This document shows, piece after piece, positions 36,118-45,000 of a stretch of DNA of 64,000 nucleotides. The translations under genes and the position numbers were made by a program. Source of the DNA: Metallumcola ferriviriculae (GTDB taxonomy: Bacteria > Bacillota > JADQBR01); assembly GCF_035573695.1 (NCBI RefSeq), contig NZ_CP121694.1, positions 1,526,501-1,590,500 of the forward strand. The letters are read 5' to 3'. Positions within the stretch are counted from its first letter, which is position 1. Each line of letters starts with the position of its first letter. Under the pieces are notes generated by a model. It was not told where the DNA came from. It made no database searches and was given only the letters and a program-made list of their open reading frames with translations.

Positions 36118-36146
36118 TTGATTAGCATCTGGTAATGAGATATAAT
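36118..36146 (+). promoter_or_regulatory. Sigma-A promoter of the tryptophan transporter gene
   Basis: TTGATT, 17 bases, TATAAT. Confidence 0.75.
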
Positions 36147-36172
36147 AAATGCAATTAAATATCGAGAGGGGT

Positions 36173-36205
36173 GAGACGAGTAGAGTTGAGTTGAGAATAG
36201 CTGAG
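36173..36205 (+). promoter_or_regulatory. Candidate TRAP-binding site (seven phased (G/U)AG triplets)
   Basis: Triplets GAG, GAG, GAG, GAG, GAG, TAG, GAG start at 36173, 36178, 36183, 36188, 36193, 36198 and 36203: a strict five-base period with two-base spacers, the signature of RNA sites for the trp RNA-binding attenuation protein. A second, less regular cluster (36233-36258) with TAG and GAG triplets overlaps the ribosome binding site. By analogy with Bacillus trpP, bound TRAP would block translation when tryptophan is plentiful. Confidence 0.82.
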
Positions 36206-36265
36206 GTGTTTTTTCTTATTTTCAGACATTTTTAGTAGGTGAGTTAAGGAGAGGAGAGATAAGTA

Positions 36266-36805
36266 ATGAGTTTAAGAGAGTCTATTCAGGTGTCCTTATT
36301 GTTAGGTATAGGTGCTTTGCTGCATCTAATCACTCCCCAGATTTTGCCGGGGATGAAGCCGGACCCATCACTTGCGATGCTATTTGTGGTGGTTATGCTC
36401 CACCGCAATATTCGTCCAATTATTTTAGCCGGTATGGTAGCGGCATTGCTGGCAGCTCTTACCGGTACTCCCGGAATGCAGGTTGCCAATTTAATTGATA
36501 AGTTTTCTACTACACTGATAGTTTATCTGGTTCTAGTAAAACCGATGTACGGTAAAATTAATGACAAGGTGCTGGCCGGCATTTGCGGTCTTTTTGGTAC
36601 TATGATCAGCGGCGGTATCTTTTTAACAGCCGCTATCTTTGTTTTAGGTTTGGAGATGAACTTTACTGCCTTGTATGCAACCATTGTCCTGCCCACAGCA
36701 ATTATCAATACTGTGGTTACAGTAGTACTTTACCCGCTGGTGGTCTTCAGTAAGAATGTGGTTGAAAAGACAAGTGTCTATAAAAGCTATAATCGTAAAG
36801 CGTAA
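36266..36805 (+). CDS. trpP: Tryptophan transporter TrpP-like
   Basis: A 179-residue membrane protein with about five or six helices (LLLGIGALLHLITPQILPGM at the start, then SLAMLFVVVMLHRN). It matches the TrpP/YhaG family of tryptophan transport proteins, which resemble S components of ECF transporters. The upstream phased (G/U)AG repeats support a tryptophan-related role independently. The ATG follows AAGGAGAGGAGAG, which lies in the second triplet cluster. A terminator follows. Confidence 0.88.
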   Translation: MSLRESIQVSLLLGIGALLHLITPQILPGMKPDPSLAMLFVVVMLHRNIRPIILAGMVAALLAALTGTPGMQVANLIDKFSTTLIVYLVLVKPMYGKINDKVLAGICGLFGTMISGGIFLTAAIFVLGLEMNFTALYATIVLPTAIINTVVTVVLYPLVVFSKNVVEKTSVYKSYNRKA

Positions 36806-36827
36806 AATGATAACAGGCAATAACAGG

Positions 36828-36855
36828 GCGAGGCCGAAAGGTTTCGCTTTTTTTG
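36828..36855 (+). terminator. Terminator after trpP
   Basis: GCGAGGCC-GAAA-GGTTTCGC hairpin followed by seven or eight T. Confidence 0.85.
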
Positions 36856-44843: not shown

Positions 44844-44919
44844 GGAGCTGTGGTGTAGAGGCTAACATGCCGGCCTGTCACGCCGGAGATCGCGGGTTCG
44901 ACCCCCGTCAGCTCCGCCA
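44844..44919 (+). tRNA. tRNA-Asp (anticodon GTC)
   Basis: A 76-nt tRNA with encoded CCA. Anticodon stem CCGGC/GCCGG with loop CTGTCAC gives GTC. T arm GGGTTCGACCC. First of three tandem tRNAs. Confidence 0.97.
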
Positions 44920-44924
44920 TATCT

Positions 44925-45000
<76 letters not shown>

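Follow-up and report, generated by a model that had tools for sequence, protein, structure and literature searches.

A two-cluster candidate TRAP-binding leader ahead of the tryptophan transporter gene trpP in Metallumcola ferriviriculae

The trpP gene and its leader

The region described here belongs to a stretch of 64,000 nucleotides of the Metallumcola ferriviriculae genome (the window), whose positions are used below unless a contig or locus is named. On its plus strand, positions 36266..36805 encode TrpP, a tryptophan transporter of 179 aa that is recognised by PF17099 with E=2.4e-36 (125.5 bits against a cut-off of 27.2), in agreement with the TrpP-like gene that an earlier, sequence-only reading had placed there. 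A terminator-like hairpin is predicted downstream of the gene, by consensus scan only (36825..36850, plus strand), which suggests that trpP forms a single-gene unit. A single-sequence TrpP search of the genome contigs returned one relative only. Further along the window, two tandem tRNA genes are found on the plus strand (44844-44997).

Upstream of trpP, a sigma-A-like promoter of the form TTGATT-17-TATAAT is predicted on the plus strand (36118..36146); it matches the consensus at 10 of 12 positions, and its TATAAT is aligned across three genera. According to this match, transcription would start at about 36153, giving a leader of about 113 nt and, as the promoter-like sequence is located just upstream, the first group of triplets (cluster I, 36166..36205, plus strand) would stand at the extreme 5′ end of the transcript. 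Cluster I, a candidate loading site for TRAP (a ring-shaped protein that senses tryptophan), contains eight (G/U)AG triplets, the last seven of which are in strict 5-nt register: GAG at 36173, 36178, 36183, 36188 and 36193, TAG at 36198 and GAG at 36203. The sequence-only reading had described seven phased triplets between 36173 and 36205, and both their coordinates and their spacing of exactly 5 nt were confirmed; the eighth, a GAG at 36166, is located 4 nt upstream of this run. Counterparts of cluster I are present in the sister-genus loci L027 (whose sequence is identical to that of L024) and L029.

Cluster I is followed by a linker (36206..36235, plus strand) with a T-rich tract, TGTTTTTTCTTATTTT, at 36207-36222 (13 T of 16). 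After the linker comes cluster II (36236..36263, plus strand), which is composed of six NAG triplets, also in strict 5-nt register, and reads TAG-gt-GAG-tt-AAG-ga-GAG-ga-GAG-at-AAG. As had been proposed for the additional triplets of the leader, this run covers the Shine-Dalgarno (SD) sequence, AAGGAGAGGAG, which is read in the sequence at 36246..36256 (plus strand), 9-14 nt before the ATG at 36266. The core of cluster II, AGGAGAGGAGAG, is identical across three genera in the alignment. The tally is, consequently, of seven strict triplets plus one in cluster I and of four (G/U)AG in cluster II, or six counting AAG. The leader thus presents what is seen in TRAP-regulated leaders, namely 7-11 (G/U)AG (NAG) triplets, mostly 2-3 nt apart, and a tryptophan-metabolism gene downstream (trpP, by PF17099).

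Other kinds of leader regulation were also considered. Control of trpP by a T-box or a riboswitch was ruled out, as there were zero Rfam matches at the leader with E up to 1. Additionally, the consensus scan found no attenuator-type terminator between 36205 and 36266, where only a weak hairpin of -2.0 kcal/mol is predicted, and the leader therefore lacks the terminator hairpin and U-run between TRAP site and gene that characterise attenuators of the trp-leader type.

Runs as long as that of cluster I are not expected from base composition. In 100 Markov-1 sequences of 128 kb each, the longest strict triplet run was of 3 or 4 units and never of 7, and the frequency of KAG in the window predicts about 2e-5 seven-unit runs for the 3.72-Mb genome, with both strands counted. 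When the genome was searched for five units in register (here, genome-wide statements refer to pattern and profile searches), matches were obtained in two places only, the trpP leader and that of trpB2, a gene for a TrpB-like enzyme (TIGR01415/NF009057). Because the same pattern read backwards, used as a control, also gave two matches in the genome, a run of five is weak evidence by itself; seven units together with their context are not.

TRAP and triplet clusters across the phylum

The mtrB search proposed with the sequence-only reading found the gene for TRAP in this genome, at C1:3275699-3275899, with E=2e-40, above the Pfam cut-off. Its product can be aligned with TRAP rings of solved structure, and the alignment includes FHH-EKLDKGE and KIRG, two segments that we take to hold residues that contact RNA and that are intact. 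The other proposed check, for triplet runs before trpE, also turned out positively: the trp operon, with the order trpEGDCFBA, is preceded by a perfect promoter, 11 triplets and two terminator-like hairpins, and a triplet cluster is also found before trpE in at least one sister genus.

No anti-TRAP gene was found above the cut-off in the genome. The best match, a 69-aa ORF with E=0.013 (below the cut-off), was discarded, as it resembles an ordinary small zinc-ribbon protein and has no T-box nearby. Autoregulation of mtrB was likewise rejected; a few GAGs are found on its own SD, but no cluster is kept in the sister genera or in 30 other mtrB leaders.

The relation between TRAP and the triplets was followed in 398 genomes of the phylum, among which mtrB was found in 200 and TrpP in 110. 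For TrpP genes that were clearly identified (E<1e-20), the leaders were scored for chains of triplets located no more than 150 nt from the start of the match, and the presence or absence of mtrB was taken from the table of the phylum-wide mtrB search. All 42 TrpP leaders of the main set from mtrB-containing genomes scored at least 4.0 and all 32 from genomes without mtrB scored at most 2.2, by a scoring rule of our own that was settled once these leaders had been inspected for the first time, but that makes no use of the mtrB label and leaves the two groups non-overlapping. These groups comprise 21 and 13 families, respectively (34 in total), and no family is found in both. The site is, therefore, kept in relatives and missing where mtrB is missing, with two exceptions. 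In one genome (G083), there are clusters, yet no mtrB was detected; this is most likely an assembly gap, because the assembly has 450 contigs and a congener (G117) contains mtrB. The other is a second TrpP paralogue (L131) of an mtrB-containing genome (G149), which has no cluster and was omitted from the count of 42. In any case, whether trpP is preceded by triplet clusters can be predicted almost without error from the presence of mtrB.

These data bear on the simplest alternative, according to which the triplets result from chance and a purine-rich SD region, with TRAP not involved. GAG is natural within GA-rich SD sequences, and the backwards control mentioned above shows that five units may occur without any such meaning. 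However, seven triplets in register far from the SD, an identical layout in the sister genera and the lack of clusters in every leader from genomes without mtrB make this reading extremely improbable, and the co-occurrence contradicts it. By contrast, the earlier proposal of a candidate TRAP-binding leader is supported at the sequence level by mtrB, by the trpE leader and by co-occurrence across 34 families.

Most of the TRAP targets known are those of Bacillus, where trpP is generally described with a single TRAP site that overlaps the SD. Control of trpP (yhaG) translation by TRAP in Bacillus subtilis was reportedly studied by Sarsero (2000) and Yakhnin (2004). The leader analysed here resembles that of B. 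subtilis in gene family, regulator, SD triplets and expected repression by tryptophan, but it has an extra upstream cluster of 7-8 triplets, which the T-rich linker separates by about 30 nt from the SD cluster. Thus, instead of a single continuous site over the SD and the start codon, there are two clusters with a 30-nt linker, and the overlap with the SD is preserved. The sequence-only reading had pointed to this difference; the layout is real, although it is not peculiar to this genome.

In fact, both sister genera share the two-cluster leader and, of the 43 leaders that were scored (G083 among them), 19 contain at least two clusters of at least three triplets each, with linkers of 10-35 nt. 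The layout is, thus, recurrent in at least eight families, the count being given as a minimum because one upper cluster (L063) probably sits above the promoter. In one genome (G362, locus L092), two TrpP genes are found in tandem, each with a separate two-cluster triplet leader.

A third arrangement was observed in 18 distant TrpP-like genes (L132-L149; E between 1e-8 and 1e-18), all from mtrB-containing genomes. They have 6-10 triplets located 55-350 nt upstream and, in 16 of the 18, the cluster is followed by a terminator-like hairpin (in a scan run without shuffled control). Judging from these sequences, such genes would have an attenuator like that of the trp operon, and their product is a probable tryptophan transporter. 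Additionally, the region from -139 to -1 of the TrpP match in the orthologue L076 contains a cluster, a hairpin with a T-run and then an SD cluster, that is, an attenuator combined with a translational site, which is a possible link between the attenuator and two-cluster forms. Control of tryptophan import would, consequently, take three forms in one phylum: an SD site only, two clusters, or an attenuator.

Proposed control of trpP and the role of the linker

From the sequence evidence, we consider it highly probable that TRAP, once activated by tryptophan, targets the trpP leader through an SD-blocking core, a judgement that excludes the readings of the linker discussed below. The triplets, the promoter match, the SD overlap, the presence of TRAP, the conservation and the co-occurrence with mtrB are features of the sequences themselves; TRAP binding, the direction of control and the loading order are what we infer. 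When tryptophan is abundant, TRAP would load onto cluster I as the nascent RNA exits RNA polymerase. Once the ring is fixed at this site, the triplets of cluster II would be occupied by those of its subunits that are still free, or by a second ring. The SD would then be covered, ribosomes would be unable to start and synthesis of the importer would be halted. When tryptophan is scarce, TRAP would be released and trpP translated. The principle of blocking the SD with TRAP is known from B. subtilis, where trpP is repressed by TRAP bound over its SD (PMC13170310); what appears to be new is that the layout has two parts and occurs widely.

Stable TRAP binding is reported for seven or more triplets (PMC4027176) and, by this rule, cluster I would suffice by itself, while the good triplets of cluster II are too few for binding without cluster I. 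Counting against the model, two of the six positions of cluster II are AAG, which are expected to bind TRAP less well. For blocking ribosomes, a single repeat over the RBS has been reported to suffice (PMC4347634). The seven strict triplets of cluster I and the four (G/U)AG of cluster II add up to 11, which is also the number of sites per ring and would fit a single ring that spans the linker. Two-cluster leaders would, in this respect, be a natural test of whether one ring can bridge separated half-sites. Room is left for a second ring because eight multi-cluster leaders exceed eleven triplets: they have at least 12 (some counts including triplets of the first codons), above one 11-mer, whereas no one-cluster leader has more than 11. 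This might indicate that two TRAP rings bind, one on each cluster, which we nevertheless consider decidedly unlikely, as the (G/U)AG triplets of cluster II number only four in this leader and 4-5 in many relatives, fewer than the seven reported for stable binding (PMC4027176), and the triplet count depends on our own chain-scoring rules.

The linker could act as a NusG-type pause site, as a hairpin-less TRAP-dependent terminator or as an SD-pairing arm, roles that are not mutually exclusive. It contains a TTNTTT motif, and the NusG of this genome has, within VVRNTPGVTGF, the N-T pair that corresponds to N81/T82 of B. subtilis (in our own numbering) and that is reported to read TTNTTT (PMC12288461). 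This would resemble the NusG-dependent pausing that gives time for TRAP binding, the likeness being one of motifs, although most TTNTTT sites give no pause (PMC12288461). Because about 14 nt of RNA are held inside RNA polymerase (PMC4027176), a pause near 36220-36226 would leave all of cluster I exposed. As a general mark of two-cluster leaders, the T-tract was rejected: TTNTTT is present in 6 of 18 linkers, and the rest are mostly A-rich.

Like the trp leader of B. subtilis, the trpP leader has an upstream TRAP site followed by a U-rich stretch, with possible pausing and refolding that hides the SD; unlike it, it lacks the antiterminator/terminator pair and has triplets on the SD itself. A refolding switch such as that of B. 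subtilis trpE, in which the U-tract would pair with cluster I without TRAP and be freed by TRAP to pair with the SD, is an alternative that we consider unlikely. In the folds predicted for this leader, the U-tract is paired with upstream sequence as long as the SD has not been transcribed, and it can afterwards pair with the SD (-10.5 versus -10.3 kcal/mol), pairing with cluster I or with the SD having similar predicted energies. The two sister genera show the same predicted alternative, and the SD hairpin becomes weaker when the T-tract is randomised, in this comparison of only three sequences (1%, 0.3% and 17% of the controls are equally stable). However, block shuffles pair equally well, and the pairing is, for this reason, explained by base composition. 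Moreover, taken as a whole, the leader does not exceed its shuffles in stability (z=-0.16), so a conserved stable structure was discarded, and the full-length predicted fold hides the SD even without TRAP, leaving no clear on-state at equilibrium.

Another alternative, which we regard as possible but doubtful, is dual control, in which TRAP on cluster I would cause hairpin-less termination of transcription in the T-rich linker, and translation of the transcripts that escape would be blocked independently at cluster II. In B. subtilis in vivo, TRAP terminates without its attenuator if an A+U-rich stretch follows its site, and deletion of the attenuator hairpin barely matters (PMC3913778). Here, the T-tract begins 1 nt past cluster I, and 3-6 nt past it in the two sister genera; in 14 of 15 leaders with two clusters, the A+T content of the linker exceeds that of its own upstream DNA, and the hairpins of L076 and of the distant TrpP-like genes place a terminator after a cluster. 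Nevertheless, the terminator hairpin is missing from all three leaders of the class, A+T-richness is common to intergenic DNA anyway, and hairpin-less termination is known only from mutated B. subtilis leaders and not from minimal in vitro reactions (PMC3913778). Its more specific form, with a natural hairpin-less TRAP-dependent terminator at cluster I and the T-tract and the same or a second ring blocking translation of the escapers, is somewhat less likely still. If it were true, the two-cluster leaders, in at least eight families, would represent a general dual-control design for tryptophan import. Such leaders would also be a natural test of hairpin-less TRAP termination beside a T-tract, otherwise known only from the mutated leaders of B. 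subtilis.

TRAP-like sites elsewhere in the genome

Under the preferred reading, that of a TRAP target with an SD-blocking core, trpP would not be alone. Inside the trp operon, a weaker TRAP-like site covers the SD of trpD (L025:8651-8681), and triplets on this SD are shared by the three genera of the class (also at L184:2187-2217, minus strand, and at L183:2684-2718). In the case of trpB2, about eight phased triplets extend over the SD and the start codon (L005:1492-1539, minus strand; C1:2941278-2941325 in the genome), a site that is common to both sister genera. We know of no trpB2 gene described as a TRAP target in Bacillus. Taken together, the sites of the trp operon leader, trpD, trpB2 and trpP seem to form a coherent set of TRAP-like sites, and the set of a class distant from Bacillus is now laid out. 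A near-perfect inverted repeat, AACTTGACAAAAAGGTGCCAGGCACCTTTTTGTCAAGTT, was also observed between trpB2 and the gene upstream of it (L005:1610-1655).
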